Under the pieces are notes generated by a model. It did no database searches. It saw nothing but the letters and a program-made list of their open reading frames with translations, and had not been told where the DNA came from. Position numbers and translations under genes: made by a program. A stretch of 64,000 nt of DNA, taken from NCBI RefSeq assembly GCF_012932215.1, contig NZ_CP048788.1, positions 2,666,001-2,730,000 of the forward strand, read 5' to 3'. Within the stretch, counting starts at the first letter, position 1. Each line of letters opens with the position of its first letter. Shown here piece after piece: positions 7,835 through 26,068 of the stretch. This DNA is from Roseobacter ponti. GTDB lineage: Bacteria; Pseudomonadota; Alphaproteobacteria; Rhodobacterales; Rhodobacteraceae.

Positions 7835-8616
7835 CGGAGCAGACACCCGACCTGAGGGAAGAACTGCGCGACGGGATCCTTAGGCTGGAATTTAACCGCC
7901 CGGAAGCCCGGAATGCGCTGACCTTCGCCATGTACGAGCGGCTTGCCACCCTCTGTGCCGGTATGGCGACCGACGGATCGGTTCGTGCAGTGGTGATTTC
8001 CGGAGCGGGTGGAAAGGCCTTTGCGGCCGGCACGGACATGACCCAGTTCAGAGCATTCAGCACCGATCAGGACGCGCTCAAGTACGAAGGCCGCATTGAT
8101 GCCGTGCTTGAAGCTGTGGAACGGTGTCCGGTGCCGACCATCGCGGCCATCCATGGCGCCTGCACGGGCGGGGGGGCGTCGATTGCTGCGGCCTGCGATA
8201 TCCGGATCACTTCGGAGCGCCTGAAATTCGGGTTTCCGATTGCGCGGACCCTCGGCAACTGCCTTGCGGCAGGTAACCTGGCCCGGCTCACTGAACTCAT
8301 GGGCGCAGGCCGGGTTCGTGAGATGATCTTTACCGCGCGGCTCCTCGACGCAGAAGAAGCACTGCGCATCGGTCTTGTGAGTGAAGTTCTGAAAGACGAA
8401 GACAGTCTGATGACCCGCGCCACCGAACTTGCCCGGCACGTGGGATCAATGGCCCCGCTTACGCTCAGAGCCACAAAAGAAGCACTGCGGCGCAACCGAG
8501 CCGCCACCAGAGTGGACGACGATGATCTGATCATCTCGTGCTACATGAGCGATGATTTCAGAACCGGGATGGAAGCCTTTCTGTCAAAAACCAAACCTGA
8601 CTGGTCAGGCAGATGA
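7831..8616 (+). CDS. Crotonase-superfamily protein (enoyl-CoA hydratase-like, both catalytic Glu absent)
   Basis: A 261-residue crotonase-fold protein. The CoA and oxyanion-hole elements are present: NRPEARNALTF near residue 23, AFAAGTDMTQF near 63, and IHGACTGGGASIAAACD near 108. Aligned by eye to rat mitochondrial enoyl-CoA hydratase, the two catalytic glutamates fall at Ser117 (in GGGAS, usually GGGCE) and Ile137 (in FGFPIA, usually FGxPEI). Plain hydratase chemistry is therefore doubtful; other crotonase reactions such as isomerisation, hydrolysis or decarboxylation are possible. It is ATGA-coupled to dctM upstream and to the CoA-transferase downstream, so its substrate is probably the CoA ester that the transferase makes. 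Confidence 0.87.
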   Translation: MTEQTPDLREELRDGILRLEFNRPEARNALTFAMYERLATLCAGMATDGSVRAVVISGAGGKAFAAGTDMTQFRAFSTDQDALKYEGRIDAVLEAVERCPVPTIAAIHGACTGGGASIAAACDIRITSERLKFGFPIARTLGNCLAAGNLARLTELMGAGRVREMIFTARLLDAEEALRIGLVSEVLKDEDSLMTRATELARHVGSMAPLTLRATKEALRRNRAATRVDDDDLIISCYMSDDFRTGMEAFLSKTKPDWSGR

Positions 8617-10588: not shown

Positions 10589-11713
10589 ATGGATATCAAG
10601 GACCAGCTGGGATCGATGCGCGCGGGAGAGATAAGCCGCCGTACCTTTACACGCAATCTTCTGGCCGCAGGCGTCGGCATCACAGCCGCGCCGCTGGCGA
10701 CGCGCAAAGCCATGGCCGCCGCCGGCGATCAGGCGACGTTTTTCACGTGGGGTGGATATGACATTCCGGAGCTTTTCGTGCCCTACAAAGAGAAAAACGG
10801 TGAACTGCCGAACTTCTCGATCTTTGGCGGATCAGAAGAGGCGCTTACAAAAATGCGCGGCGGGTTTGTCGTCGATGTCTCACATCCCTGCAACTCCGGC
10901 CTGCCCCGCTGGGTGCAGTCGGGTCTCTTTCAGCCCATCGATACCTCACGGCTGACGAACTGGGGAGATGTGATGCCGGAACTGGTCTCCCTGCCCGGCA
11001 ATGACGCCGACGCGGGCAACGTTTGGCTGGCACCTTTTGACTGGGGTCAGACGTCGATCACCTACCGCACGGATCTCTTTGAGGTCGAGGGCGAGGAAAG
11101 CTGGGACATGCTCTGGGATGAGCGGTATTCCGGACGGCTTGGTTCGCTTGCTTCCGGCGGCGACGCCTGGTGGTGCGGTGCGATCAAAGCCGGCGTGCCG
11201 ATGGATCAGATCCACACCGATGAAGCCTTTGAGAAAATCGCCGCGGTGATGCGCGAGCAGCGCCCGCTGCTGCGCACCTATACCGATGACACCACCACCC
11301 TTGAGCAGGCCCTGGCCTCCGGCGAGATGGTTGCCGCGATGACCTGGAACAGCTCCGCGACCGTGCTCAAAGCCGAAGGCGTGCCGGTGAAGTTCGCGAG
11401 CCCCAAAGAAGGCGCGCTGACATGGGTTTGCGGCCTCATGATCCACAAAGACGCGCCGAACATCGACAAGGCTTATGAGGTCATCGACAGCCTGCTCAGT
11501 GTGGACTCCGGAAAATTCATGATCAATGACTACGGATACGGACATTCCAACAACAAATCGTTTGAACAGTTCGATGCGGAAACGCTAGCAGGTCTTGGCC
11601 TGAGTGACACGCCGGCTGATATCCTCGGCGCAGGGCACTTCCAGGTTCCGCAGACCCAGGAGTGGGAGACGAAAATGAACACTGTCTTTGAGGAAATCAA
11701 AGCAGGCTTCTGA
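10589..11713 (+). CDS. Polyamine-type ABC transporter substrate-binding protein (PotD-like), Tat signal
   Basis: A 374-residue periplasmic solute-binding protein. The N-terminus carries a twin-arginine signal (SRRTFTRN, residues 15-22) followed by a hydrophobic stretch and a cleavage region near MAAA at about 46. The mature part starts with the PotD-family pattern FFTWGGYDIPELFVPY. Later come DVSHPCNSGLPRWVQSGLFQP near 95, LAPFDWGQTSITYR near 150, and TLEQALASGEMVAAMTWN near 235, where aspartate, tryptophan and tyrosine residues usually cage a cationic amine. It opens an operon with two permeases and an ATPase, and leads into three amine-dehydrogenase paralogs. The ligand is inferred to be a polyamine-like or N-methylated cation. 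Confidence 0.9.
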   Translation: MDIKDQLGSMRAGEISRRTFTRNLLAAGVGITAAPLATRKAMAAAGDQATFFTWGGYDIPELFVPYKEKNGELPNFSIFGGSEEALTKMRGGFVVDVSHPCNSGLPRWVQSGLFQPIDTSRLTNWGDVMPELVSLPGNDADAGNVWLAPFDWGQTSITYRTDLFEVEGEESWDMLWDERYSGRLGSLASGGDAWWCGAIKAGVPMDQIHTDEAFEKIAAVMREQRPLLRTYTDDTTTLEQALASGEMVAAMTWNSSATVLKAEGVPVKFASPKEGALTWVCGLMIHKDAPNIDKAYEVIDSLLSVDSGKFMINDYGYGHSNNKSFEQFDAETLAGLGLSDTPADILGAGHFQVPQTQEWETKMNTVFEEIKAGF

Positions 11714-11748: not shown

Positions 11749-11814
11749 CTGTCCACTCCCGCGTCAGCGATGCCCCGCGGGTATTCACCACTTCTTTTGA
11801 ACAGGTCGGACCCG

Positions 11815-12747
11815 ATGAGTGATCAGACCCTTCAGACGCGCAGCGCACCGGTCGCCACACCGGCCACGGCGGGGCGTTTCGGTCGCCTGATGCAGCGCTC
11901 TGAGGCGTCAAGAGGCTATGCCCTTCTTGCGCCCTCGCTGATCTTTCTCGGCGTGGTCATCCTTGTGCCGTTCGGCATTCTGCTGGTGATGAGTTTCTGG
12001 ACAGCGTCCGGGTTCGGCTTTGATACAAACTTTACGACCGCGAACTATCAGAAGTTTTTTGAGCGGCCGATCTATACCGCGCTGCTCAACCGGTCGCTTT
12101 TCATTTCCGGTATGGTGACAGTCTTTACTGTGCTCCTGTGCTATCCGATGGCCTATTATGTCGCGTTTCACGTGCACCGTCACAAGATGCTCTGGATCGT
12201 GCTGATGACGCTGCCCTTCTGGACAAGCTATCTGCTGCGCGTTTTCGCCTGGAAGGTCGTGCTCGGCTATGAGGGGGTGATTAATTCGGCGCTGATGAAT
12301 ATGGGCCTGATCGAGGCCCCGCTGGAATTTCTGCTCTACAGCCAGCAGGCGGTGATCATCACGCTTGCCCATGCCTGGGCTGCCTTTGCCATTCTGCCGC
12401 TGTATGTCTCGCTGGAGAAGATCGACAAATCCCTGCTGGAGGCGGCCACTGATCTGGGTGACGGTCCGGTGCGGCGGTTTTTCCGCATCACCCTGCCCCT
12501 GTCGCTGCCAGGCGTGATCTCTGCCAGTCTGCTGATCTTTATCCCCACCACCGGCGACTACATCACACCGGCACTTCTGGGCGGACCCGACGGCGCGATG
12601 ATCGGCAACCTCATCCAGAAACAGTTCGGCCCGATCAACAACTGGCCGATGGGGGCGGCGCTTTCGATTATTCTGATGCTGTGCATTGCGACCATCAGCC
12701 TTGTCTTCATCCTGCTAACCCTCTTCGTCAGAAAGCGCGTTTCATGA
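11815..12747 (+). CDS. ABC transporter permease (PotB-like)
   Basis: A roughly 310-residue inner-membrane permease with six predicted transmembrane helices. The first helix is YALLAPSLIFLGVVILVPFG. The cytoplasmic EAA loop that docks the ATPase reads EAATDLGDGPVRRFFRITLPLSLPG, near residue 205. The frame is open upstream to 11770, but the ATG at 11815 gives a conventional N-terminus with AGGTCGGA just before it. Order binding protein - permease - permease - ATPase is that of spermidine/putrescine-type importers. Its stop overlaps the next permease start (ATGA), so both membrane subunits are made in a coupled way. Confidence 0.92.
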   Translation: MSDQTLQTRSAPVATPATAGRFGRLMQRSEASRGYALLAPSLIFLGVVILVPFGILLVMSFWTASGFGFDTNFTTANYQKFFERPIYTALLNRSLFISGMVTVFTVLLCYPMAYYVAFHVHRHKMLWIVLMTLPFWTSYLLRVFAWKVVLGYEGVINSALMNMGLIEAPLEFLLYSQQAVIITLAHAWAAFAILPLYVSLEKIDKSLLEAATDLGDGPVRRFFRITLPLSLPGVISASLLIFIPTTGDYITPALLGGPDGAMIGNLIQKQFGPINNWPMGAALSIILMLCIATISLVFILLTLFVRKRVS

Positions 12748-13565
12748 GTGGCGAAAGCTATATCCGCCGGCCTAACCGTCCCCTGCAGATCTATGCGGTG
12801 GTGTTTCTGATCCTGCTTTACGTCCCGGTGATGTTCCTGCCGCTTTTCAGCTTCAACGACTCGCTTTATGTGCGCTTCCCGCTCGAGGGGTTCACCCTGC
12901 AATGGTACGGAGAGCTTTTTCAGCGCGACGCGGTCTGGAATGCGCTGTGGAACTCTGTGCGTGTCGGCGTGGTGGTAGCCGTTTTTTCAACCACGCTGGG
13001 GGTTTTCGCGGCCAAGGCCATCACCCGCTACCGGATGCCGGGCAAAGGGCCGATGGTCACCTTCATCATGCTGCCGCTGGTGGTGCCGCTGATCATCTTC
13101 GGCGTGGCGCTGCTGGTGCTGCTGAGCCAGCTTGGCATTGCGCTCTCACTCTATACCGTGGCGATCGGCCATATGATCGTCTGCCTGCCCTTCTCCATCG
13201 CCGTGCTGATCCCCCGGTTTGAAGGCTTTGACGCCTCTATCGAAGAGGCCTCCGCCGATCTGGGGGAAAATGCATTCTGGACCTTCTGGCGCGTGACGCT
13301 GCCGATGGTGGGGCCCGGTGTGGTGGCCAGTCTGATGCTCACCTTTACGGTTTCATTTGATGAATTCATTCTGGCGTTTTTCCTCAGCGGAACTGAGCCC
13401 ACACTGCCGATGTACATCTGGGGGCAGTTGCGCTTTCCACAGCAGTTCCCGTCCATTCTGGCGCTGTCATCGATCATTATCTTCGTCTCTTTCGTGCTGG
13501 TCTTCGCCGGTCAGTGGATCAACCGCGGTGCGCTTTCCGGCTCGGCAAAAAGGAGCGGCGCATGA
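12744..13565 (+). CDS. ABC transporter permease (PotC-like)
   Basis: A 273-residue permease with six predicted helices, forming the membrane channel together with the PotB-like subunit. The EAA loop reads IEEASADLGENAFWTFWRVTLP near residue 168, and the family stretch FTVSFDEFILAFFLSG follows. The start is the ATG that overlaps the upstream TGA (ATGA at 12744-12747); an earlier in-frame ATG at 12681 lies deep inside the upstream gene and is not preferred. The stop again overlaps the start of the ATPase gene (ATGA at 13562-13565). This tight coupling supports stoichiometric assembly of one importer. Confidence 0.92.
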   Translation: MSGESYIRRPNRPLQIYAVVFLILLYVPVMFLPLFSFNDSLYVRFPLEGFTLQWYGELFQRDAVWNALWNSVRVGVVVAVFSTTLGVFAAKAITRYRMPGKGPMVTFIMLPLVVPLIIFGVALLVLLSQLGIALSLYTVAIGHMIVCLPFSIAVLIPRFEGFDASIEEASADLGENAFWTFWRVTLPMVGPGVVASLMLTFTVSFDEFILAFFLSGTEPTLPMYIWGQLRFPQQFPSILALSSIIIFVSFVLVFAGQWINRGALSGSAKRSGA

Positions 13566-14662
13566 CCCCGCAGGACGCGTTCATTTCGATCCGCAATGTG
13601 GATAAATACTTCGGCAGTTTTCAGGCGATCAACAACGTCTCAATCGATATCGGGCACGGAGAGTTCTTTTCGCTGCTCGGCTCGTCGGGCTGCGGCAAGA
13701 CCACGCTGCTGCGCATGCTCGCGGGTTTTGAGAACCCCTCTTCGGGCGAGATCCTGATCGATGGTCAGCCGATGACGGACGTGCCACCGCACCTGCGCCC
13801 GGTCAACATGGTCTTTCAGAACTATGCGATTTTTCCGCATCTGAACGTTCTTGACAATATCGCCTACGGGCTGCGCAGGCAAAAGCTGTCAAAGGCGAAG
13901 GTGAACACAATGGTCGATGAGATGCTCGACCTGATCAAACTGCCCGGATACGGAAACCGCAAAGCCACCGAACTGTCCGGCGGTCAGCGCCAGCGCGTCG
14001 CCCTTGCACGTGCGCTGATCCTGCGGCCCAAAGTCCTGTTGCTGGATGAACCGCTGGGCGCGCTCGACAAGCAGCTGCGCGAACAGATGCAGCTTGAGCT
14101 CAGAGAGCTGCAACGCACGGTCGGCATTACCTTTGTTTTCGTGACCCACGATCAGGAAGAAGCGCTGACCCTGTCGGACCGGATCGCGGTAATGTCGCGC
14201 GGAGAGGTGTTGCAGCTTGATACACCCACCGGGCTCTATGAACGCCCGGTCAGCCGGGAGGTCGCGTCGTTCATCGGCACCATGAATTTCTTTGACGGGC
14301 GTGTGACGGGGTCGGATGCGACGGGGATGACAGTGGACGCCGCAGGCCTCGGGTCGCTGCATATCCCCGGACCCAAGCGCGCCTTTACCGATGGCGACAC
14401 AGTACATGTCGCGCTGCGTCCCGAACGGTTTGAGCTGGCCGCAGAGGCCCCGGCGGGCGAAAGCGGACACGCGCGCGGGGTTGTCAGAAACGCAGCCTAT
14501 CTGGGCGAGCGCAGTCATTACTATGTCGAGCTTGAGGGAGTTGAAGCGCCGGTTGCAGTCTCTGCGCAGAACGGTATCGGCGGCTCGTTTTCAGTAACCG
14601 AAGGCAGCCCGGTCTGGCTGAAGTGGCATAACGAGGCAGCCGTCGTGCTGCGCCCGGAATGA
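13562..14662 (+). CDS. ABC transporter ATP-binding protein (PotA-like)
   Basis: A 366-residue ATPase of the polyamine/opine importer class. The nucleotide-binding domain shows Walker A GSSGCGKTT near residue 39, the Q-loop VFQNYAIFPHL near 85, signature LSGGQRQR near 138, Walker B VLLLDEPLGALD near 158 and the switch His in FVTHDQEEA near 193. A C-terminal TOBE-type regulatory domain follows from about residue 270 (VHVALRPERFEL). The start is the ATG overlapping the upstream stop; the in-frame ATG 48 bases earlier is within the permease. It energises uptake through the two preceding permeases. The TetR regulator starts 20 bases downstream. Confidence 0.93.
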   Translation: MTPQDAFISIRNVDKYFGSFQAINNVSIDIGHGEFFSLLGSSGCGKTTLLRMLAGFENPSSGEILIDGQPMTDVPPHLRPVNMVFQNYAIFPHLNVLDNIAYGLRRQKLSKAKVNTMVDEMLDLIKLPGYGNRKATELSGGQRQRVALARALILRPKVLLLDEPLGALDKQLREQMQLELRELQRTVGITFVFVTHDQEEALTLSDRIAVMSRGEVLQLDTPTGLYERPVSREVASFIGTMNFFDGRVTGSDATGMTVDAAGLGSLHIPGPKRAFTDGDTVHVALRPERFELAAEAPAGESGHARGVVRNAAYLGERSHYYVELEGVEAPVAVSAQNGIGGSFSVTEGSPVWLKWHNEAAVVLRPE

Positions 14663-14682: not shown

Positions 14683-15369
14683 GTGGCAACGCCGGAAGCA
14701 ACCACAAAAGCCAGCAGAACGAATGCGCGCAGCGGACGCACGGCCCCCCGCGAGGTCCGGCGGCAGCAGCTGATTGAGGCCACGATCGAGTCGATCTCGA
14801 AATATGGCATTTCGGGCACCACGATGACGACCGTGACAGGCCTTGCGGGTCTCTCGCTGGGCATCGTCAACTTTTACTTTGAGAGCAAGGAAAACCTCTT
14901 TGAGGAGACCCTGCGCTTTCTGGCTGAAGAACACCGTGCTCTGTGGCGCAGAACGGTTATCACGGACAAGCCGACGGCTGCCGGCAAGCTGCTGGCCATT
15001 GTCGACGCCGAGTTTCATCCGAAGGTCTGCAGCCACAAAAAGCTGACCGTCTGGACGGCCTTTTACGGCGAGGCGGGGTATCGCAAATCCTATCGCGAGA
15101 TCATGTCGGGGATCGACACAGAACGCTGGCAGGCCTCCACGCGTCTGTGTCGTGAAATCATCGAACAGGGCAGTTACGAAGGCATGGAGGCCGAAAGCAT
15201 TGCGGAGACCCTTGAAGGGCTTTTTGACGGTTTTTGCCTCAACATTTTGATCTATCCCGGCGAATTCACCCGCGAAGATGCGAGAAACAGAATTCGCGAC
15301 TATCTCGCGACAGTGTTTCCTGCCCATTTTGCCGGCGGGACAACGCCGTGCTCCGGGACACCTGAATGA
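14683..15369 (+). CDS. TetR-family transcriptional regulator (BetI-like)
   Basis: A 228-residue repressor beginning at GTG. A basic 25-residue leader is followed by the TetR helix-turn-helix: RRQQLIEATIESISKYG, then GTTMTTVTGLAGLSLGIVNFYFESKENLF (residues about 28-72). The C-terminal ligand domain resembles BetI (WTAFYGEAGYRKSYREI, LEGLFDGFCLNILIYPGEF), and BetI regulators respond to choline/betaine-type quaternary amines. Its gene sits between the importer and the TMADH-like enzymes, and its stop overlaps the first enzyme start (ATGA). It probably represses this operon and the aminotransferase at 23425-24807 through the repeats at 10411 and 24881. The effector is inferred to be the imported methylated amine or a metabolite. 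Confidence 0.88.
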   Translation: MATPEATTKASRTNARSGRTAPREVRRQQLIEATIESISKYGISGTTMTTVTGLAGLSLGIVNFYFESKENLFEETLRFLAEEHRALWRRTVITDKPTAAGKLLAIVDAEFHPKVCSHKKLTVWTAFYGEAGYRKSYREIMSGIDTERWQASTRLCREIIEQGSYEGMEAESIAETLEGLFDGFCLNILIYPGEFTREDARNRIRDYLATVFPAHFAGGTTPCSGTPE

Positions 15370-17417
15370 GCAGAGATCCGCGGTATGACATCCTCTTTGA
15401 GCCGGTACAGATCGGGCCCGTCACGGCCCCGAACCGGTTTTTTCAGGTGCCCCATTGCAACGGCATGGGCCATCAGTATCCGTCGTCGATGGCCGAGATG
15501 CGCGCCATCAAAGCCGAGGGCGGATGGGGCGTGGTAAACACCGAAGAGGCCGAGATTTCACATACCTCGGAGCTCAGCGGTGTGATTGAGGCACGGCTCT
15601 GGGACGACAGCGATATTCCGGCTCTGGCCCGTATGGTCGAGAAGGTCCATGCGCACGGTGCTCTGGCAGGTATCGAGCCTGCCCATCTTGGTGCCGGGGC
15701 TGCCAATAACTACAGCCGCGAGATCCCTATGGGCCCGTCCGCGCGCCCCGTCGATCTGTCGGAGCCCGTTCAGGCACGCGCCATGGACAAGGCCGATATC
15801 CGCGCCTTTCGTAAAATGCATGTAGATGCGGCCCTGCGCGCCAGAAAGGCAGGGTTTGACATTGTCTATGTCTATGCCGGCCACGATATGACAACGCTGA
15901 TGCACTTCCTGTCGCACACCCGCAACGACCGAACCGATGAATACGGCGGCTCGCTGGAAAACCGGGTGCGGCTGATGCGCGAGGTGCTGACGGACACCAA
16001 AGAGGCAATTGGTGACACTACCGCAGTGGCGATCCGCCTCGCCGTGGACGAGATGAAGGGCAAAGATGGCATCGCCTCTGACGGTGAGGGTCGTGAGATT
16101 GTCGAAATGCTGGCTGAACTGCCCGACCTCTGGGACGTGAACGTCAGTGGCTGGGAGAATGACAGCCAGACCTCGCGGTTTTCCGAAGAGGGGTATCAGA
16201 CCGACTACATTTCCTTTGTCAAAAGCCTGACCAGCAAACCGGTAGTGGGCGTCGGGCGCTTCACCTCGCCCGACACGATGGTGTCTCTGGTGAAAAAGGG
16301 CGTGCTGGACCTTATCGGCGCGGCGCGCCCGTCGATTGCCGACCCGTTCCTGCCCAAAAAGATCGACGAGGGCCGGGTGGAGGACATCCGCGAGTGCATT
16401 GGCTGCAACATCTGCGTGACAGCGGATTTTCTGGCGCACCCGATGCGCTGCACCCAGAACCCGACCATGGGCGAGGAATGGCGCAGAGGCTGGCACCCGG
16501 AGTACATCGCCGACAAATCGAACAGCGAAACGGTGCTCATCGTGGGCGCGGGCCCTGCGGGGCTTGAGGCTGCACGCGCCCTGGGACAACGCGGCCATGC
16601 GGTGACTCTGTCCGAGGGCGCAGATCACGTGGGCGGCCGCGTGGCGCGCGAAGCCACTCTGCCCGGCCTCTCTGCCTGGAAGCGCGTGGCCGATTACCGC
16701 GCGTACCGGATCAGCCAGATGCCGCAGGTGGATCTTTATCTGCAAAGCCACCTGACCGCAGCACAGGTCATGGAATTTGAGGCCGATCATGTGGTGATTG
16801 CCACTGGCGCGCGCTGGTCGGCCACGGGCATCGGGCGCAGCAACCGCCAGGGTATTCCCGCCAGTGAGGGTGCCCGCGTCATGACCGCCGATGACATTAT
16901 CGCTGGCAAAACGCCCGAAGGACCGGTCGTCATTTTTGACGATGATTATTATTACATGGCCGGGCTCATCGCGGAGAAGCTGCGCGCTGACGGCCATGAC
17001 GTCACCTATGTCACGCCGGCGGCGGACGTTTCGCACTGGACCCACAACACCATGGAGCAGGAGCGGATCCAGACCCGGCTCATGGAAACCGGGGTGAAGA
17101 TCGTCCCGCTGCACAACGTCATTCGTGCGGGTGCCGGGGCGGTTGATCTTGAATGCGTCTATACCGGCCAGGTGACTTCCCTGCCCTGCGGGACTTTCAT
17201 CCCGGTGACGATGCGGACACCGACTGACGCGCTTTATCACGATCTGATCGCCGAAGGCATGCAACCGGAAAAGGTCACCCGTATCGGCGATTGTCTGGCC
17301 CCCGGCACCATTGCCGCCGCGGTCTATGCCGGGCACCGTTTTGCACGGGAGTTTGGCGAACCGCCTGCGACCGGCGTGCCCTTCCGACGCGAACTCCCCC
17401 GGCTGGCGGCTGAATGA
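15366..17417 (+). CDS. Trimethylamine dehydrogenase-like flavoprotein, paralog 1
   Basis: A 683-residue iron-sulfur flavoprotein colinear with Methylophilus trimethylamine dehydrogenase (TMADH). An FMN TIM barrel comes first, then a 4Fe-4S site, then a dinucleotide-binding half (GAGPAG at 394-399). Cys31 in VPHC matches TMADH Cys30, which binds FMN covalently as 6-S-cysteinyl-FMN. Cys344, 347, 350 and 362 match the cluster ligands. Active-site Tyr170, His173, Trp263 and Asp266 match Tyr169, His172, Trp264 and Asp267. The aromatic cage differs: TMADH Tyr60 is Glu61 here, and Trp355 is replaced by Asp. It should oxidatively demethylate or deaminate an amine other than trimethylamine. It is coupled to the TetR gene and to paralog 2. 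Confidence 0.88.
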   Translation: MSRDPRYDILFEPVQIGPVTAPNRFFQVPHCNGMGHQYPSSMAEMRAIKAEGGWGVVNTEEAEISHTSELSGVIEARLWDDSDIPALARMVEKVHAHGALAGIEPAHLGAGAANNYSREIPMGPSARPVDLSEPVQARAMDKADIRAFRKMHVDAALRARKAGFDIVYVYAGHDMTTLMHFLSHTRNDRTDEYGGSLENRVRLMREVLTDTKEAIGDTTAVAIRLAVDEMKGKDGIASDGEGREIVEMLAELPDLWDVNVSGWENDSQTSRFSEEGYQTDYISFVKSLTSKPVVGVGRFTSPDTMVSLVKKGVLDLIGAARPSIADPFLPKKIDEGRVEDIRECIGCNICVTADFLAHPMRCTQNPTMGEEWRRGWHPEYIADKSNSETVLIVGAGPAGLEAARALGQRGHAVTLSEGADHVGGRVAREATLPGLSAWKRVADYRAYRISQMPQVDLYLQSHLTAAQVMEFEADHVVIATGARWSATGIGRSNRQGIPASEGARVMTADDIIAGKTPEGPVVIFDDDYYYMAGLIAEKLRADGHDVTYVTPAADVSHWTHNTMEQERIQTRLMETGVKIVPLHNVIRAGAGAVDLECVYTGQVTSLPCGTFIPVTMRTPTDALYHDLIAEGMQPEKVTRIGDCLAPGTIAAAVYAGHRFAREFGEPPATGVPFRRELPRLAAE

Positions 17418-17418
17418 C

Positions 17419-19449
17419 ATGACCCGTGATCCGCGATATGATGTGCTCTTTCAGCCGGTGAAAATCGGCCCGGTAACCGCGCGCAACCGTTTTTATCAGG
17501 TGCCGCACTGCAACGGCATGGGCCGCAGTTTCCCGTCGTCGATGGCAGAGATGCGCCGCACAAAGGCCGAGGGCGGCTGGGCTGTGATCTGCACCGAGGA
17601 GATTGAAATCCACCCCTCAGGGGATCACTCACCATGGGCCGGCGGACGGCTCTGGGACGACAGCGATATCCCGGTGCTGGCGAAGATGTGCGAGGGCATT
17701 CACGAATTTGGCAGCCTCGCCGGCGCCGAGATCAATCACGCAGGGCAGATGGCCGCCAACCGCTACAGCCGCGACGTGCCGCTGGCGCCATCGCACCTGC
17801 CCGTGGCGCTGCATGACCCGGTGCAGGCCCGCGCCATGGACCACGAGGACATCCGCAATCTGCGCCGCTGGCACCGCGATGCGGCGCTGCGCGCGAAAAA
17901 GGCGGGCTTTGATCTGGTTTATGTCTATGCCGGGCATCAGCTGTCGACGATTTCGCACTTCCTCTCGCCCTACCGCAACCGGCGCTCGGACGAGTACGGC
18001 GGATCGCTTGAAAACCGCACACGGCTGTTGCGTGAAATACTGGCGGATACCAAAGACGCCGTGGGCGACACCTGTGCCGTCGCCCTGCGCTTTGCCGTCG
18101 ATGAACTGATGGGGGATCTGGGGTTCACTAGCACCGGCGAGGGTCGCGATCTGATCGAAATGCTGGCCGAGGAGCCGGACCTCTGGGACGTGAACATCAG
18201 CGCCTGGGAACATGACAGCGCCACCTCACGCTTCAAGGCCCAGGGGTTTCAGGATGACTACGTGGCTTTCGTCAAAGAGGTCACCAGCAAACCCGTCGTC
18301 GGTGTCGGCCGCTATACTTCGCCCGATGCGATGGTTTCTCTGATCAACAAGGGTCGGCTCGATATGATTGGCGCGGCGCGGCCTTCGATTGCCGATCCCT
18401 TCCTGCCCAGGAAGATCGAAGAGGGCCGCATCGAGGACATCCGTGAGTGTATCGGGTGCAATATCTGTGTCTCCGGTGACAACCATTTCACGCCGATCCG
18501 CTGCACTCAGAACCCGACGATGGGCGAAGAATGGCGTAAAGGATGGCACCCCGAGCGGATCGCCCCGCGGACGGCGGATGAAACGGTGCTGATCATCGGC
18601 GCCGGACCCGCAGGTCTTGAGGCCGCGCGCGCGCTGGGACAACGCGGCTATCACGTGACGCTGGCCGATAAAGCCGGTGAGGCCGGCGGCCGTGTGACCC
18701 TCGAACGAAAGCTGCCTGGCCTCGCGGAATGGGGCCGTGTTGCGGACTACCGGACGTATCAGATCAGCCAGATGGCCAATGTGGATTTCTTTCCGGAGAG
18801 CGCCATGACGCCCGATACCATCGCCGAATTTGACGCCGATCATGTGGCAATCGCCACAGGCGCGCGCTGGACAGCGGACGGGATCGGCCGGCAGAACCCG
18901 CTGGGCATTGATTGCGCGGACGGCGCGCAGGTTCTGACGCCCGACGATGTGATGACGGGCACGGTACCCGAGGGGCCGGTTGTGGTGTTTGACGACGATC
19001 ATTTTTACATGGGCGGCGTGATTGCCGAAAAGCTCCGGCGCGACGGCTGCGATGTGACGCTGGTGACCCCCGCCGGCGAGGTCTCCTCCTGGACGCACAA
19101 CACTCTTGATCAGCACGCCATTCAGAAGCAGTTGCTGGAACTTGGGGTCCGCATCATCACCTCCCATAATCTCACTGCGATCCGCGCAGGCGAGGCCGAT
19201 ATCGGCTGCGTCTTCACCGATGCGCCGCGCAGCATTTCCTGCGAGACTGCCGTGCTCGTGACCATGCGCCGCCCGGTGGATGATCTCTGGCACGCGCGTC
19301 CGGCACTGACCCGCATAGGCGATGCGCTCGGCCCTTCGACGATCGCTGCCGCCGTCTACAGCGGGCACCGCTATGCCCGCGAACTGGGCGCACCTGACGA
19401 GGGCAACGTGCCCTTCCGCCGCGAACTCATCAACCTGTCCCCGAACTGA
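17419..19449 (+). CDS. Trimethylamine dehydrogenase-like flavoprotein, paralog 2
   Basis: A 676-residue paralog of the preceding protein, starting one base after its stop codon; an in-frame ATG at 17311 lies inside gene 1 and is rejected. FMN-linking Cys31 (VPHCNGMG), Tyr170, His173, Trp263 and Asp266 (SAWEHDSATSRF) are all present, as are the cluster cysteines of CIGCNIC at 344-350. As in paralog 1 the TMADH cage residue Tyr60 is a glutamate (CTEE) and Trp355 is Asp. The nucleotide-binding half has GAGPAGLEAARALG. Shared Glu61 and the near-identical numbering suggest paralogs 1 and 2 act on related substrates, or form a hetero-oligomer, while paralog 3 differs. Electrons would go to an ETF-like acceptor, not encoded here. 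Confidence 0.88.
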   Translation: MTRDPRYDVLFQPVKIGPVTARNRFYQVPHCNGMGRSFPSSMAEMRRTKAEGGWAVICTEEIEIHPSGDHSPWAGGRLWDDSDIPVLAKMCEGIHEFGSLAGAEINHAGQMAANRYSRDVPLAPSHLPVALHDPVQARAMDHEDIRNLRRWHRDAALRAKKAGFDLVYVYAGHQLSTISHFLSPYRNRRSDEYGGSLENRTRLLREILADTKDAVGDTCAVALRFAVDELMGDLGFTSTGEGRDLIEMLAEEPDLWDVNISAWEHDSATSRFKAQGFQDDYVAFVKEVTSKPVVGVGRYTSPDAMVSLINKGRLDMIGAARPSIADPFLPRKIEEGRIEDIRECIGCNICVSGDNHFTPIRCTQNPTMGEEWRKGWHPERIAPRTADETVLIIGAGPAGLEAARALGQRGYHVTLADKAGEAGGRVTLERKLPGLAEWGRVADYRTYQISQMANVDFFPESAMTPDTIAEFDADHVAIATGARWTADGIGRQNPLGIDCADGAQVLTPDDVMTGTVPEGPVVVFDDDHFYMGGVIAEKLRRDGCDVTLVTPAGEVSSWTHNTLDQHAIQKQLLELGVRIITSHNLTAIRAGEADIGCVFTDAPRSISCETAVLVTMRRPVDDLWHARPALTRIGDALGPSTIAAAVYSGHRYARELGAPDEGNVPFRRELINLSPN

Positions 19450-19464
19450 TCAGAGGCTCATCCA

Positions 19465-22017
19465 GTGTCCCGAGACCCGCGTTACGACATCCTTTTCCAG
19501 CCGCAGAAAATCGGCCCGGTCACAGCCAAAAACCGGTTCTATCAGGTGCCGCACTGCACGGGCATGGGCTATCTGCGGCCCCGTATGCTGGCCGATCTGC
19601 GCGCCACTAAGGCCGAAGGCGGCTGGGGCGTGGTCTGCACGGAATATAACTCGATCCACCCCTCCTCTGACGATCTCACCCATGTCTCCGCCTCGCTCTG
19701 GGATGACAGCGACGTGCGCGCGCATTCGCTGATGACCGACAAGGTGCATGAACACGGGGCGCTGGCCGGTGCGGAGCTGTGGTATGGCGGGGCGCGCACG
19801 GCCAATATGCTGACACGTGAGATCGCGCTGGATCTCGACAGCATGCCCAACGCTGTGGGCCACCCGTTCCAGACCCGCGCCATGGACAAACAGGACATAC
19901 GCGATCTGCGCCGCTGGCACCGCCGCGCCGCACTGCGCGCGCGCGAGGCAGGATTTGACGTGGTCTACGTTTACGCCACGCATACCTATCTGCTCTCCAA
20001 TTTCCTCAGCCCCAAAGCCAACACGCGCAGCGACGAATATGGCGGCAGCCTCGCCAACCGCGTGCGGCTGGTGCGTGAACTCATCGAAGAGACCAAAGAG
20101 GCCGTGGGCGACCGCTGCGCAGTCGCTGTGCGCTTTTCCGCAGATGAACAGATCGGCGAGGACGGGGTGCCCATCCACGGTGAGCGGCGCGATATGTTCG
20201 GCATGCTTGCCGGCCTGCCTGACCTCTGGGACATCAACATCGCCAGTTATTTTGTCGAGATGGGGGTGTCGCGCTTTACCAAAGAGGCCGCTCTGGAGCC
20301 CTATATGGACTTCGTCAAAAGCCAGACGGATAAGCCGGTGGTCACCGTCGGACGCTTTACCTCGCCCGATACGATGGTGAGCCAGATCCGGCGCGGTATC
20401 ACTGATTTCATCGGCGCAGCACGCCCCTCCATCGCAGATCCGTTCCTGCCAAAGAAAATCGAAGAGGGCCGCTTCGAAGACATCCGCGAATGCATCGGCT
20501 GCAACGTCTGCTATTCCGGCGACAGCATCGGCGTGGCCATCCGCTGCACGCAGAACCCGACAATGGGAGAAGAGTGGCGCAAAGGCTGGCATCCCGAAGA
20601 GATGAACCCGGCACGCTCTGAGGCTTCGGTGCTCGTGGTGGGCGCCGGTCCGGCGGGTCTTGAAGCCACGCGCGCGCTTGGCAGGCGCGGCTATAAGGTC
20701 ACCCTGGCAGATGCCGGGCGCGAGCCGGGCGGCCGCCTGCCGCGCGAAGCCGCTCTGCCCGGCATGAACGAATACATCCGCGTGCGCGATTACCGCGTCC
20801 AGCAGTTTCACAAGATGACCAATGTCGAGGTCTTTGCCGAAAGCTCGCTGACCGCCAGAGACGTTATCGATTTCGGCGCGGATCACGTGGCCCTGGCCAC
20901 CGGCGCGCGCTGGCGCAAAGACCGCTTTGACGGTGAGACCTATGTCTCTGTCGTGGCCCCGGGAAGCGATCCGGAAATTCTCACCGCCGACGACATCATG
21001 GATGGCCGGCTGCCGGATGGCCCGACGCTCGTCTATGACGAGGACGGCTATTACATGGGCGGTGTGATCGCCGAAAAGCTGAAGGCGGCGGGGCTCGCGG
21101 TCACGCTGTGCACACCCTCCGAAGTGGTCTCGGAATGGGCCGGCAAAACCTCCGAGCGGTGGACGATTCGCACCCATCTGATGAAACTCGGGATTGATCT
21201 TGAGCTTTCGCAGTCGCTCACCTTCTTTGACGGGCAGAACGCAGTGCTCTCCTGTCAGTTCACCGGCGCGGAAAAACAGCTCGCTGTGAGCGCGGTCGTC
21301 ATGGTCACCCAGCGCCGCCCCGATGACGCGCTTTATCACGAGATCCTCGCGACGGTGGACGGCGATGCCGATGCCCTGCCCTTCACGCTCACGCGGATCG
21401 GGGACTGCAATGCACCCTCGATTGTGGCCGGTGCCACCTATGCTGGGCACCGCTACGCGCGAGAACTCGAAGAGGTCACAGATAAGGACATGCCGCTCAG
21501 ACACGACCGTGTGGACGTGGGTCTGGTGGCGCCGTCCTCATCCACAACGCCTTCACCGGAATACCTTGAAACGCTGCTGCGGTATTACGAGGAAGAGGTT
21601 GAGGGGGAAGCTTATTTTGCAGGTCTTGCCGCGCGGATGGCTGACGAGGGCCTGCGCGAAAAGATGCAGCTTCTGGCAGATGTGGAGACATATACCGCCG
21701 CCGCTATGCGCCCGCTTGTAGAGAAATACGGCCTGACGCCCCGCGCAACGGAAAAGCTTGAGGCCAGTGGCCGGGCGCAGGCCGCTGAGGCATCAACCGA
21801 CTGGGAGAAGATCATCGGAGAGATGCACCGGACCTACCCTGGCTATATTGCTGAATTTGAGCGGCTTGAGGCCATGGCCCCGCCCGAAGACCTGGCCGCG
21901 CTCCGGATAGCTACCGCACATGAAGTGGTGGCAGTTGAATTCCTGAAGCGTGAAAGCGCCGGGCGCCCGGACAGCCCCGACCCGCTGCGGCAGTTCCTGC
22001 AGACCGGCGCGGCCTGA
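19465..22017 (+). CDS. Trimethylamine dehydrogenase-like flavoprotein, paralog 3, fused to a ferritin-like helical domain
   Basis: An 850-residue protein starting at GTG, 15 bases after paralog 2. Residues 1 to about 685 are TMADH-like: FMN-linking Cys31, Tyr170, His173, and cluster Cys343, 346, 349 and 361. Unlike its neighbours it keeps Tyr61 (the TMADH Tyr60 cage residue), but Trp264 becomes Tyr262 and Asp267 becomes Glu265. After a Ser/Thr/Pro linker (SSSTTPSP) an extra region of about 165 residues appears, with four predicted amphipathic helices rich in Glu. Patterns such as YYEEEVEGEAYF, LADVETYTAAAM and ATAHEVVAVEFL resemble ferritin/rubrerythrin-like bundles. TMADH itself (about 730 residues) lacks this. 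The extra domain may bind metal or serve docking; that is inference. Confidence 0.85.
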   Translation: MSRDPRYDILFQPQKIGPVTAKNRFYQVPHCTGMGYLRPRMLADLRATKAEGGWGVVCTEYNSIHPSSDDLTHVSASLWDDSDVRAHSLMTDKVHEHGALAGAELWYGGARTANMLTREIALDLDSMPNAVGHPFQTRAMDKQDIRDLRRWHRRAALRAREAGFDVVYVYATHTYLLSNFLSPKANTRSDEYGGSLANRVRLVRELIEETKEAVGDRCAVAVRFSADEQIGEDGVPIHGERRDMFGMLAGLPDLWDINIASYFVEMGVSRFTKEAALEPYMDFVKSQTDKPVVTVGRFTSPDTMVSQIRRGITDFIGAARPSIADPFLPKKIEEGRFEDIRECIGCNVCYSGDSIGVAIRCTQNPTMGEEWRKGWHPEEMNPARSEASVLVVGAGPAGLEATRALGRRGYKVTLADAGREPGGRLPREAALPGMNEYIRVRDYRVQQFHKMTNVEVFAESSLTARDVIDFGADHVALATGARWRKDRFDGETYVSVVAPGSDPEILTADDIMDGRLPDGPTLVYDEDGYYMGGVIAEKLKAAGLAVTLCTPSEVVSEWAGKTSERWTIRTHLMKLGIDLELSQSLTFFDGQNAVLSCQFTGAEKQLAVSAVVMVTQRRPDDALYHEILATVDGDADALPFTLTRIGDCNAPSIVAGATYAGHRYARELEEVTDKDMPLRHDRVDVGLVAPSSSTTPSPEYLETLLRYYEEEVEGEAYFAGLAARMADEGLREKMQLLADVETYTAAAMRPLVEKYGLTPRATEKLEASGRAQAAEASTDWEKIIGEMHRTYPGYIAEFERLEAMAPPEDLAALRIATAHEVVAVEFLKRESAGRPDSPDPLRQFLQTGAA

Positions 22018-22019
22018 GA

Positions 22020-22223
22020 ATGCGCGCCCGGTGGATCACAGCGGGGGTTCTTCTGTCCACGTTAGGTGCGGCGGGCGCTTTTTATGCGCTCACCGGCTTG
22101 TCAGAACCTCCGCCCACAGCCATCGCGGAGGCCCCTGACTGCGACAGCTGCAGCGCGCGTAAACAGAACATAAAGCGCGTGCAGCAGGCGCTTAATCCTG
22201 CTCCGGCACCCGGGTCTGATTGA
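22020..22223 (+). CDS. Small membrane-anchored or secreted CxxC protein
   Basis: A 67-residue frame beginning two bases after the paralog 3 stop codon, in the same direction. The N-terminus is Arg-rich and followed by a hydrophobic segment (WITAGVLLSTLGAAGAFYAL), a signal anchor or signal peptide. The remaining 40 residues are polar and contain a CDSCSA motif (CxxC) followed by a short basic helix. No family is recognised. Operon position and the clear export signal argue for a real gene; it could bind a metal or haem, or act as a redox helper of the neighbouring enzymes. It has no strong ribosome site and may rely on coupling. Confidence 0.5.
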   Translation: MRARWITAGVLLSTLGAAGAFYALTGLSEPPPTAIAEAPDCDSCSARKQNIKRVQQALNPAPAPGSD

Positions 22224-22361: not shown

Positions 22362-22715
22362 ATGATGATACACATGCTCTCCAGTTTTGATCTGCGTCCC
22401 GGAGAAGATTTCGCCACCTTTGCCGGTGACTACGATGTCTTTCTCGCGGATCTGCGCGCGGCCGGCATGATCGCCGGGGCCGGCCCTCTCGGGCGGCGTG
22501 TGAACGACACGCCTATGGATACCGATGAAGCTCATACCCAGACCTGTTTTTCGGTGATGCAGTTTCGTGACCGTGCCCCGCTTGATGCCGCCTATGCGCA
22601 TATCGACGCGCGCGCCCGCCCCGGAACCTCAAGCCACCTGCGGATGTACCGCCGCCTGACCAACACCGTTTTTCTGTGCTGGGAAGACGCAAGCCATGAA
22701 AAGGAAACGCCATGA
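22362..22715 (+). CDS. DUF6614-like family protein
   Basis: A protein of about 117 residues recognised as the family containing HMLSSFDLRPGEDFATF, GAGPLGRRVNDTPMDTD and LRMYRRLTNTVFLCWED, common in Rhodobacterales next to amine and methyl-compound catabolic genes. The fold is probably ferredoxin-like (dimeric alpha-beta barrel). The open frame extends upstream to 22269, but GAGGA at 22355-22359 points to the ATG at 22362, which is immediately followed by a second ATG. Its stop overlaps the bicupin start (ATGA at 22712). The biochemical role is unknown; context suggests a step downstream of demethylation. Confidence 0.75.
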   Translation: MMIHMLSSFDLRPGEDFATFAGDYDVFLADLRAAGMIAGAGPLGRRVNDTPMDTDEAHTQTCFSVMQFRDRAPLDAAYAHIDARARPGTSSHLRMYRRLTNTVFLCWEDASHEKETP

Positions 22716-23488
22716 CGAAGACCGCCACAATCATCCGTTTTGATCCGCAGGGGCCTGACGGCCTCGAGACCTGGGAGGAGATGAACTACGCGAGCCTCGT
22801 CTCAGGTGAGCCCGTGCAGCGCGGTCACATCTATCACGAGATCGAGGCGCAGGGCTATCTCGCCGGGGTCTGGGACTGCACCGCCTTTACCGATCAGATG
22901 ATGCCCTATCCGGTTGATGAATATATGCTTTTCCTCAAAGGTGATCTGTCGATGGTGCTGCCCGACGGGCGGGAGATTGATATCCGGGCAGGTGATGCTT
23001 TCGTGATCCCGAAAGGGTTCATGTGCCAGTGGAAACAGCCGGGTCCGGTGCACAAGATTTTCATGATCCTCGACGGGCCTGTGCCCGATGCAGAGAATGC
23101 CTCGCTCAGACGGATCACCGTGCCGGACCTCTCTGCACCCGACGGTGCGGATGTGACGGCTTCGCGCACCGATTTTCTGAACGCCGCAGGTACCATGCGC
23201 GTCGAGGTGCAGAGCTTTGGCGCAACGACGCAGCCTGGCAAGAAGGCCTCTGAAAACATGCTGATCTCTGTGCTGGAGGGCCGTCTGAGCCTGCATGACG
23301 GGCTGGAAGCGCATGAATTTCTGCCCGGTGATACGGCCTATATCCACCAGAATGACAGTGTGAGCTGGGAAACGGACGCCGGCACCCGGGTGATCACCGC
23401 CAGCTATATCGACATGGCTGAAGCTCAGGTCTCGGCAAACTCCTCTTCAACCTCGGATATGGCATCGGTCAGAATGTCGAACATCTGA
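22712..23488 (+). CDS. Bicupin-domain protein
   Basis: A 258-residue protein with two cupin barrels. The first includes [33 protein letters not shown] (about 70-105) and the segment [16 protein letters not shown], typical of Cupin_3-type domains. The second spans about 160-240 ([30 protein letters not shown]). The first barrel lacks an obvious His-His metal pair. It is coupled to the DUF6614 gene and ends the plus-strand operon; its last 64 bases overlap the convergent aminotransferase gene. Proteins of this type can be isomerases, aminohydrolases or ligand-binding proteins, and no specific reaction can be assigned. Confidence 0.8.
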
Positions 23489-24807
23489 TCGACCTGCTCA
23501 GGCGAGATCGTCAGCGGCGGTGAGAAGACGCACATGTTAATGAGCGGCCGCACAATCAGCCCGCGCGCCTCACAGGCCTCGTCGAGGCGTGCCCCGAGCG
23601 TGCGCTGCACATCAAGCGGCGTATTGCGGCCGTCGATGAGTCCCTCAAGGCAGCCCAGAAGCCCCATGCCGCGCGCGTCCCCGATGATCGGCGAGGACTC
23701 GAGCGCCGTCAGCCGCTCCTGAAACTGCGGCGCGATCGCCCGGACGTGTTCCAGCAACCCGTCGCGTTCGATGATTTCAATGTTTTTCAGCGCAGCGGCA
23801 CAGCACACAGGATGCGCCGAATAGGTATATCCGTTGGGAAAGAGCACATCGTGATCGGCGCCTGTCATGCGCTCCATCACCCGGTCGGAGATGATGCAGG
23901 CCCCCAGCGGCAGATAGCCCGACGTAATCCCCTTGGCGCAGGTGATGATATCGGGCTCGATCCCGAAGACCTCTTCAGACGCAAACCAGTGCCCGAGACG
24001 TCCGAACGCCGTAACGACCTCGTCTGAGATATACAGGATATCGTGCCTGCGGCAGAGCTCCAGCGTGCGGCGGTGATAGCCTTCGGGCGGGATGATCACG
24101 CCGCCGGAACAAAGCACCGGTTCGGCGATAAAGGCACCGATGTACTCCGGGCCCACATCGGCGATCAAGCGTTCAAGGTCATCGACCTTGGCGTCACACC
24201 AGGCCGCCTCAGACATGCCCTCCGGTCGGATGTAAGGATTGACGTCCGGCAGAAACCGCACGAGCCGGTCCTCAAAATCGAAACAGCTTTTGTCGCGTTC
24301 TTTGCCCGTCACGCTTGCGGCAAGATAGGTGGACCCGTGATAGCCCTTTTCCCGGGCGATGATAATCTTTTTCCCGGGCCGCCCGAGCCGGTTGTTCATG
24401 AACTGCATCGTGCGCAGCGCGGTATCCACCGCCGTTGAGCCACCGGTGGTGAACATCACAGTGTTGAGGTTTTCGGGCGCCATGGCCGCAACTTTTTCCG
24501 CAAGTGCTGCAGCCGGTGCGGTGGTCGAAGACCAGGGCGAGGCATAGGGCAATTCCATTACCTGGGCTGCAATGGCATCGGCCATTTCCTTGCGGCCATA
24601 GCCGATCTGCACCGCCCACATGCCCGCCGGCCCGTCGATCAGGCGACGCCCGGCGCCGTCATAGACGTATATCCCGTCGCCCCGGGTGAATGCATACCGC
24701 TCGCCTTCCTTCCAGGATCCCATATGCTCCCAGGGGTGCAGATGGTGCTTCTGATCGACGTCCAGCATATGGTCGATTGCGCGGTTGTGGCCTGCTTTCG
24801 GTGTCAC
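23425..24807 (-). CDS. Class III omega-aminotransferase (SpuC-like)
   Basis: A 460-residue PLP enzyme that moves a terminal amino group from a diamine or amino acid to pyruvate or a 2-oxoacid. Landmarks are HPWEHMGSW at the N-terminus, [13 protein letters not shown] near 59, the phosphate-binding GGSTAVDTA near 122, GYHGST at 155, [15 protein letters not shown] with Asp262, and the PLP lysine Lys292 in [14 protein letters not shown]. Putrescine- and omega-amino-acid-pyruvate transaminases have this form. It is transcribed toward the TMADH operon and overlaps the bicupin 3' end by 64 bp. The operator-like repeat at 24881-24898 ahead of it matches the one ahead of the importer, so it likely belongs to the same regulon. 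Confidence 0.88.
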
Positions 24808-25058: not shown

Positions 25059-25838
25059 TCACACCGGTTTGCGCCCGCGAATGTGATGCGGGCAATGCTC
25101 TGCGCTCTCAAGGACACCCACGAGCTTGCTCCAGATTGCGATCTGATGATCAATGAAAGCCTGCCCGTGCCGTTCACTCAGTCGGCCGCGTTCCGCGCCT
25201 GTGAGCCATGCCAGTTCTTCGCGGGCAACGCCGCTGTACCAGGGGTTGCGGTTGACCAGTTCGACGTCGGTGAACCCTGCCGCCTGCATCGCTTTGGCAT
25301 AGGCCGAGGGCGATGCCATGGCAAAATCGAGCCCTTCCTCCCTGATGTAGTCCGCCATCTCCGGCGAGGGAGCTTCATCATGGCTGATCAGCCAGTCCGA
25401 TACGGCAAACCGGCCTCCGGGCCGCAGCACGCGGAAGGCATCTGCGGTCAGTGCCGCTTTGTCCGGGATGTGGATGATCGAGTCTTTCGAAAAAACCAGA
25501 TCAAATGTGCCATCTCCGAAAGGAAACGGGCCGGGGCTGACTTTCACGATTTCGACTTTATCCGACAGGACCTCGCGCGCGACACGCGCCCGCGCAGCGT
25601 CACAGACGGGATCCTCCACGTCTATTCCCGTCACCTTTGCCGCGCCGTAGTCGCGCGCCAGCAGGACCGCACAGGCTCCCGAGCCGGATCCGATATCCAG
25701 CACGTGTTTGCCGGCCACGTCGACGCCGGTCAGAACCCGCCCGACTTCATCCGCGCCGCCAGGGGAGAGAAAGCCATCGCCCCAGATGTCTTCAAGGAAA
25801 TCAATATGCTGTTTGTCGTATAAAATATCGTCGCTCAT
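25059..25838 (-). CDS. SAM-dependent methyltransferase (sarcosine/dimethylglycine or phosphoethanolamine N-methyltransferase-like)
   Basis: A 259-residue class I methyltransferase. The frame is open to 25958, but GGAGGG lies just ahead of the ATG at 25838, giving the start MSDDILYDKQHIDFLEDIWG. FLSPGG near 23 and the SAM-binding motif VLDIGSGSGACAVLLA near 45 are followed by VTGIDVEDPVCDAARARV (acidic ribose-binding loop), LVFSKDSIIHIPDK and VLRPGGRFAVSDWLIS. The FLSPGG start resembles small-molecule N-methyltransferases of the glycine betaine and phosphoethanolamine type. It is a single gene; proximity to the methylated-amine cluster is suggestive but no shared control element was seen at its own start. 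An arsenite or other small-molecule methyltransferase cannot be excluded. Confidence 0.78.
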   Translation of the reverse strand: MSDDILYDKQHIDFLEDIWGDGFLSPGGADEVGRVLTGVDVAGKHVLDIGSGSGACAVLLARDYGAAKVTGIDVEDPVCDAARARVAREVLSDKVEIVKVSPGPFPFGDGTFDLVFSKDSIIHIPDKAALTADAFRVLRPGGRFAVSDWLISHDEAPSPEMADYIREEGLDFAMASPSAYAKAMQAAGFTDVELVNRNPWYSGVAREELAWLTGAERGRLSERHGQAFIDHQIAIWSKLVGVLESAEHCPHHIRGRKPV

Positions 25839-26068
25839 CAGAACCCTCCGTGCCCCTTCCAGTGAACAGGCAAAGCTGCTGATCTGGCAAGCAGGTTTGG
25901 CAGGAGCACCGCAAATTCGGCCCGACCGGAGCACGAAGGACAGTAAATCGTGCGGCATCGCTCAGCGGTTCGATGAATCGTCGCGGCACTGTAAACGCCC
26001 GGAAGGGCCCATTGCCCGAGGCGACCGGCCCGCCGCGACCAGCCGTGGGCGCAGCGATCCGCCCGTCG

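Follow-up and report, generated by a model that had tools for sequence, protein, structure and literature searches.

Flavoproteins of the trimethylamine dehydrogenase (TMADH) family oxidize a C–N bond at a flavin, hydrolyze the resulting iminium, and deliver the electrons to an electron-transfer flavoprotein (ETF). The closest described systems are TMADH itself (PDB 1djn/2tmd), the histamine dehydrogenases (HADHs; 3k30 and 6de6), and the 6-hydroxypseudooxynicotine oxidase NdpC/6L6J. Here we describe three genes of this family, designated P1, P2, and P3, in a 64,000-nt stretch of Roseobacter ponti DNA, the whole of which is referred to as the window. An original prediction for this DNA, which used TMADH alone for comparison, had placed three adjacent TMADH-family genes beside a PotABCD-type importer and one regulator; the profile scans and the intact open reading frames (ORFs) agree. 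We propose, with a probability of about 0.55, that the operon imports an N-methylated amine, demethylates it oxidatively, and then transaminates the product.

P1, P2, and P3 are three uninterrupted ORFs, arranged back to back on the plus strand and spanning positions 15366–22017. The gene order on this strand is potDBCA, a tetR/betI-like regulator, P1, P2, and P3. The regulator (14683–15369), which exceeds the cut-off of PF13977 and stays below those of two BetI models, overlaps P1 by 4 nt. A gap of 1 nt separates P1 (15366–17417, 683 aa) from P2 (17419–19449, 676 aa), and one of 15 nt separates P2 from P3 (19465–22017, 850 aa). In profile scans each protein has PF00724 and, from the TMADH/FadH architecture, the Pyr_redox_2 half; P3 extends about 165 aa beyond P1 and P2. 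A PF00724 search of the genome itself found two further genes, both 27% identical to P2, so that this search revealed no close TMADH-type gene beyond P1–P3.

P1 (C31, E61, Y170, H173, M175, W263, D266, D354), P2 (C31, E61, N106, Y170, H173, L175, W263, D266, and Asp in column 354), and P3 (C31, Y61, W106, Y170, H173, Y175, Y262, E265, and D353, which falls in column 354 of P1) have the FMN-linking Cys31, Tyr170, and His173 in common. The cysteines of the 4Fe-4S cluster are located at 344/347/350/362 in P1 and P2, and at 343/346/349/361 in P3. The Cys-linked FMN site, the cluster cysteines, and the Tyr-His-acid triad of TMADH are therefore present in all three proteins, and P3 alone also keeps Tyr61, Trp106, and Tyr175. 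By contrast, the aromatic bowl of TMADH (Tyr60/Trp264/Trp355) is replaced by Glu/Trp/Asp in P1 and P2, and by Tyr/Tyr/Asp in P3. That is, Tyr60 becomes Glu61 in P1 and P2, next to Trp263 and Asp266; Trp264 and Asp267 become Tyr262 and Glu265 in P3; and Trp355 becomes Asp throughout. The window system also differs from TMADH in its importer and aminotransferase partners and in the ferritin-like extension of P3. The residues named in the original prediction are all among these. The Asp in the place of Trp355 is evident in pairwise alignments; in the multiple alignment an additional residue of TMADH falls at this point and leaves W355/E356 ambiguous by one place. The same prediction took this Asp to be distinctive, but both solved HADHs share Asp354, so it is no distinguishing mark of P1–P3.

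Columns 61, 263, 266, and 354 are nearly fixed inside each orthologous group, which argues that the cage residues are not a product of chance. The exceptions are Gln61 in the P1 orthologue of L017 and Trp at column 263 in the distant P3-like enzyme of L027 (L-numbers denote the loci compared). Read along P1 columns 31, 61, 105, 106, 170, 173, 175, 263, 266, and 354, the signature of P3 is CYLWYHYYED, from which L027 and L089 deviate among the P3-like rows. The signature of P1 is mostly CEPAYHMWDD (CELA... in L086, CQPCYHLWDD in L017), and that of P2 is CE(I/L)NYHLWDD. The HADH clade has CQLAYH(F/Y/I)W(C/D)D, with Cys in one column because the catalytic Asp265 of Rhizobium HADH sits one place earlier, according to a passage in PMC10180351. 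A TMADH-like clade comprising L054, L058, L065, and L094 has Ala for the FMN-linking Cys (AYLWYHYLDN); L094 adjoins an annotated trimethylamine methyltransferase family gene, and the other three have weak MTTB matches (25–27%). At L059, the TMADH-like enzyme next to a window-type receptor (78%) belongs to another group (CQLVYHGWDN).

The solved relatives that score highest against P1 are the HADHs, with 786 bits for 6de6 and 781 for 3k30, followed by 718 for 6l6j and 547 for TMADH; the corresponding values for P3 are 683, 657, 647, and 542. Identity to the solved HADHs is 53.6–54.5% for P1, 53.6–54.1% for P2, and 47.9–49.0% for P3, and identity to TMADH is about 45% over 548 columns for all three. 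Among the paralogues themselves, P1 and P2 are 64% identical, P1 and P3 52%, and P2 and P3 54%. The main tree (63 rows, 676 columns, LG+R4, 1000 ultrafast bootstrap (UFBoot) replicates, IQ-TREE) makes P1 and P2 sister groups (UFBoot 100). Their clade (100) takes in L061, L062, L063, L070, L092, L107, and L111, and is separate from the HADH clade (100). P3 and its orthologues are joined by L052, L055–L057, L068, L090, L091, and L093 with UFBoot 100, the sister group itself having 97, and TMADH joins this side of the tree with 78. Deep nodes are weak (13–60), and with them the placement of the HADH clade. In an earlier FastTree of 94 rows P1 and P2 lay next to HADH with a support of 0.53; we prefer the IQ-TREE result, in which they belong, with UFBoot 100, to a clade linked to MTTB and Rieske genes. 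Judged by this tree, P1–P3 appear to be two old lineages and not one triplication, contrary to the single set of diverged paralogues that had been proposed. The best solved scores go to the HADHs, but P1–P3 lie outside the HADH clade and do not have Gln61. 6L6J groups with NdpC (UFBoot 100), an assignment that for 6L6J comes from this clade only and for NdpC from annotation. A 6-hydroxypseudooxynicotine oxidase belongs to the same family as P1–P3 and acts on an N-methylamine (Pno, in an excerpt of PMC5500553). It differs in Ala31 for the FMN-linking Cys, in Val at column 354, and in its nicotine gene cluster, and P1–P3 fall outside its clade. A further relative lies on S. meliloti pSymA, in a record without annotation.

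The neighbours of these relatives point toward N-demethylation. On plasmid pW43C of Parasedimentitalea marina (L093), a P3-like enzyme (55%) has among its neighbours genes annotated as alpha subunits of aromatic ring-hydroxylating dioxygenases. A TetR, two FAD enzymes, and a PotABCD-type importer are also encoded there, as are an aminotransferase and an aminomethyltransferase. Related modules occur at L056, L057, L090, and L091, with Rieske matches in L056 and L090 only. All five loci combine a TMADH-like enzyme, FADa/FADb, and a PotABCD-type importer; GcvT and an aminotransferase are found in four (neither was seen at L091), and a Rieske gene in three. The enzymes of this module are sisters of P3 with an identical or near-identical signature, its receptors have the same type of pocket as that of the window, and its aminotransferase is 69% identical to the window's. 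The module differs in having neither P1 nor P2, in the ferritin-like domain not being found there, and in a TetR only 32% identical to the window's; as far as we found, it is itself uncharacterized. Across the eight rows of the P3 sister group, CYLWYHYYED recurs in six (L093 has Phe61, L056 has Glu354), a Rieske gene in three (L056, L090, L093), FADa/FADb pairs in five, and a class III aminotransferase in four. Five P3 loci (L081, L082, L083, L085, L087) adjoin the FADb (75–81%) and TetR (53–60%) of this module.

The P1/P2 clade has comparable neighbours. Four of its seven members outside P3 operons lie beside an MTTB gene (L061–L063) or a Rieske gene (L070); the MTTB gene of L063 is confirmed by Pfam, and those of L061 and L062 are 85% and 77% identical to it. 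As stated in part of PMC12478193, the MttB family includes glycine betaine methyltransferases. Relatives of both the P1/P2 and the P3 type co-occur with the same type of aminotransferase. In the window the class III aminotransferase is at 23425–24807 on the minus strand; it exceeds the cut-off of PRK07036, and its best solved matches are 3i5t, an aminotransferase with no stated function, and 6gwi, a putrescine aminotransferase. Neither a Rieske nor an MTTB gene was found at any of ten HADH-clade loci (L028–L031, L060, L064, L069, L071, L108, and L109, with L030 and L031 placed there by the 94-row FastTree only), and RidA is present at eight of the ten. Thus, the earlier proposal of successive or alternative oxidations of an N-methylated cation other than trimethylamine gains support from the Rieske/MttB and aminotransferase neighbours of the relatives of both lineages, and also from the receptor described below. 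As a separate observation, the HADH-clade genes that recur with RidA (L028, L030, L031, L060, L069, L071, L108, L109) are in several cases accompanied by LysR or a PotABCD-type importer, and at L028 and L031 by a histone-deacetylase-like gene; these are likely amine deamination operons.

The solute receptor of the window (potD-like, 10589–11713, plus strand) was characterized by profile scans and receptor alignments. The amines of spermidine are bound in E. coli PotD by Glu36, Glu171, and Asp257 (PMC4096761). At these positions the window receptor carries Gly, Asp, and Cys, and two of the three carboxylates are thus missing. Together with its orthologues it has Gly at 36 in 18/18 and Cys at 257 in 17/17 readable rows. 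The receptors of the Rieske, MTTB, or FAD/GcvT modules show Gly36, Cys83, and Cys257 in 9/9, with position 171 being Asp in five and Ser or Asn in four. The pocket of the window receptor thus matches that of most Rieske/MttB-module receptors rather than PotD. Receptors beside HADH-clade enzymes (L028, L031, L060, L064, L069) carry acids at 36, 171, and 257. These residues suggest that the importer of the window differs from a canonical polyamine importer, and a different importer may serve some of the related systems. The remaining importer genes, also on the plus strand, are a potB-like permease (11770–12747, the ORF as listed, its true start possibly further in), a potC-like permease (12744–13565; the ORF opens at 12681, with ATG 12744 the likely start), and a potA-like ATPase (13562–14662) that exceeds the cut-off of TIGR01187; both permeases have orthologues beside P3.

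We infer the chemistry of the proposed route from that of the family, and with it the order of the steps and the class of substrate. The PotABCD-type transporter would take up a small N-methylated amine. At the 6-S-cysteinyl FMN (Cys31) of each enzyme an N-methyl group would be oxidized to an iminium, with Tyr170-His173-Asp266 (Glu265 in P3) as the presumed relay at the flavin site; water would then convert the iminium to formaldehyde and the demethylated amine, and the electrons would pass by way of the 4Fe-4S cluster to ETF. A tertiary amine would be the substrate of P3, whose pocket is the more TMADH-like (Tyr61, Trp106, Tyr175), and less methylated or related amines would be those of P1 and P2 (Glu61/Trp263/Asp354). 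The resulting primary amine would be removed by the adjacent class III aminotransferase. Homarine, considered as a candidate, is neither supported nor opposed, the literature having given no gene set for comparison.

We surveyed 36 loci outside the window at which a P3 orthologue reaches 58% identity or more, counting neighbours by chosen identity cut-offs. Both P1 and P2 accompany P3 in only three of them (L007, L008, L077); P1 alone is present in five, P2 alone in four, and neither in 24, including L089, whose Glu61 enzyme is more distant (55% identical to P1). At least 5 kb upstream of P3 is available in 32 loci, and neither gene is found in 21 of these. Among 295 family genomes drawn, 19, the window's included, have a P3 match of at least 63%, the next best being at most 57%; of 11 same-genus genomes only R. 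ponti has the triple, and three have pairs. The triple as a functional unit, as it had been presented, is not upheld by these counts. Rather, P3 is the core gene by these gene contents, with P1 and P2 often gained or lost. The near relative L006, whose operon genes, where present, are 93–99% identical to those of the window at the protein level, has no P1. Over the first 100 alignment columns there (the end of tetR and about 45 nt of the gene), identity is 86% with the P1 region against 59% with the P2 region; downstream the sequence switches to P2-like (L006:7900–9990). The junction resembles the outcome of a P1/P2 recombination that removed or added P1, although L006 is a metagenome-assembled genome and an assembly error is possible. 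The other neighbours of P3 are potD in 17 of the 36 loci, tetR in 26, a cupin in 17, a polyamine-oxidase-like gene in 14, DAO-GcvT in 11, DAO (c12) in 10, the aminotransferase in seven, FADb in five, and MTTB in one (L011, 41%); Rieske and RidA genes are found in none, and RidA is likewise not found in the window. Of these neighbours, the DAO-GcvT genes count in favour of the proposed route.

Several of these observations weigh against the proposed route of import, N-demethylation, and transamination. Since P3 mostly occurs without P1 and P2, a strict succession of three steps is not needed. With Rieske genes in none and MTTB in one of the P3 loci, the link to quaternary-amine demethylases runs by way of sister groups; among the P1/P2 relatives, neither gene was seen at three of seven loci (L092, L107, L111). 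Rieske and MTTB genes are also not beside the window operon; two Rieske (PF00848) and four MTTB (PF06253) genes lie elsewhere in the genome and could supply the first step for a quaternary substrate. The same genome has eleven GcvT-type matches, six of them in open frames of 818–829 aa, a length typical of DAO-GcvT proteins. The polyamine-oxidase-like genes near P3 belong here as well, the solved relatives of the protein in L009 being spermine oxidase and LSD1. Acids at receptor positions 36 and 257 occur at the P3 loci L009, L020, L077, and L089, at L055 in the sister group of P3, and at L067, where a Rieske gene and an aminotransferase (79%) are also found; the pocket is therefore no clean separator of systems, and the two receptor types represent two families and do not count as independent events. 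The full-length P3 model (mean pLDDT 71.5, 197 residues below 50) is too poor for inference on the pocket or docking. The lack of Rieske genes at the P3 loci and the PotD-like acids at L055 and L067 lowered our estimate for the proposed route from 0.60 to 0.55, and slightly raised that for polyamine catabolism.

Catabolism of a polyamine or biogenic amine, in which a PotD-type importer brings in a polyamine or histamine-like diamine and P1–P3 deaminate primary amines with Asp354 holding the distal cation, was the first reading considered, in view of the search ranking. Beyond the HADH scores and the shared Asp354, part of PMC10180351 reports that saturation mutagenesis of this residue in HADH gave active clones only where it was not substituted, and that HADHs accept putrescine and agmatine. 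The polyamine-oxidase-like neighbours and the PotD-like acids at some P3 loci fit as well. This explanation was then lowered on phylogeny, gene neighbourhoods, and receptor residues: P1/P2 and P3 lie in clades of UFBoot 100 apart from that of HADH, albeit above deeper nodes of 13–60; the Gln61 of HADH is Glu or Tyr; the RidA partner of most HADH-clade loci is absent from the P3 loci and the window; and the pocket of the window receptor is unlike those beside HADHs, with two of the three spermidine carboxylates missing. We consider it rather unlikely.

A variant of the proposed route, whose odds overlap with it, is that the three enzymes are alternatives and not steps, each demethylating a different N-methylated amine from one importer. 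Frequent gain and loss of P1 and P2, and the L006 junction, speak for this variant; against it stand the close packing of the genes behind a single regulator with a single receptor, and the occurrence of one aminotransferase type beside relatives of both lineages. We regard this variant as a possible but tentative option. It is quite unlikely that the operon encodes a known betaine route, i.e., dimethylglycine demethylation (DgcA), stachydrine (proline betaine) demethylation, or a comparable characterized demethylase. The chemistry and the family, compared by description only, are alike, and the regulator is BetI-like. However, dgcA occurs with dgcB and fixAB, as described in a section of PMC12093977, and these are absent from the ten window proteins scanned; nor would a class III aminotransferase have an evident role with glycine or proline as products.

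Two features were absent from the original prediction, whose interpretation is partly supported overall. One is a ferritin-like helical-bundle domain in the C-terminal part of P3 (residues 691–850; 21535–22014, plus strand). Besides the window, 12 of the 36 P3 loci have it, six as a fusion to P3 (L006–L009, L017, L074) and six as a small gene of its own adjacent to P3 (L010, L013, L073, L078, L084, L087); in L055 a separate gene lies about 7 kb from the P3-sister gene. Sequence searches of Pfam, NCBIfam, and the PDB gave no weighty match, with three of the 14 members weakly similar to DUF2202 (E 0.092 at best). The predicted structure (pLDDT 95.8) has mostly ferritins and Dps-like proteins among its ten best Foldseek matches (probability 1.00, TM 0.61–0.67, E 0.013–0.027), and its invariant residues include Glu19–21, Glu51, His129, and Glu130 (domain numbering). 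Because the domain is fused to P3 in the window and in relatives, it would have a role joint with P3. BLAST did not find it in the five Rieske/FAD-type loci L056, L057, L090, L091, and L093, and no Rieske gene was seen at the 36 P3 loci. This led us to consider that P3 is a two-centre N-demethylase, in which the domain, if di-iron, would take the first methyl of a quaternary ammonium and the flavin the next, replacing Rieske or MttB; the premise is that the flavin cannot attack a quaternary ammonium. We hold this idea to be very doubtful.

The other feature is a fourth gene of the old yellow enzyme (OYE)/TMADH family, P4, which follows P3 in 7 of the 36 loci (L007–L011, L073, L076) and has no FMN-linking Cys (MALSVHYSLM in L009). 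Searches for P4 in the window and L006 gave only cross-matches to P1–P3 and, in L006, one 58-residue match (E 0.29). In the window its place directly behind P3 is occupied by a 67-codon ORF (22020–22223, plus strand) for a putative membrane-anchored peptide with a membrane-like start and a CxxC, with a counterpart in L006. Further along on the plus strand are a small protein with sub-threshold DUF6614 similarity (22362–22715), relatives of which lie near P3 in 6 of the 36 loci, and the EutQ-like cupin (22712–23488), counted near P3 at 26% identity or more. A SAM methyltransferase (25059–25844, minus strand) has an orthologue near P3 in 3 of the 36 loci, and its link is uncertain. Upstream of potD, at 5988–9839, TRAP transporter, enoyl-CoA hydratase-like, and CaiB-like CoA transferase genes were noted by eye. 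Of the P3 loci drawn, L006 alone has part of this set, which for this reason is not counted in the system.

A search of open-licence PMC full text, preprints being outside its scope, found no description of this gene set, which proves no absence but is consistent with the original view that the substrate is undescribed. If the proposed route is correct, it would represent an uncharacterized path for methylated amines in Rhodobacterales and some gammaproteobacteria. The residue sets E61-W263-D354 of P1 and P2 and Y61-Y262-E265-D354 of P3 would then separate N-demethylating TMADH relatives from histamine dehydrogenase, and the ferritin-like domain fused to a TMADH-family enzyme is an oddity that can be tested.

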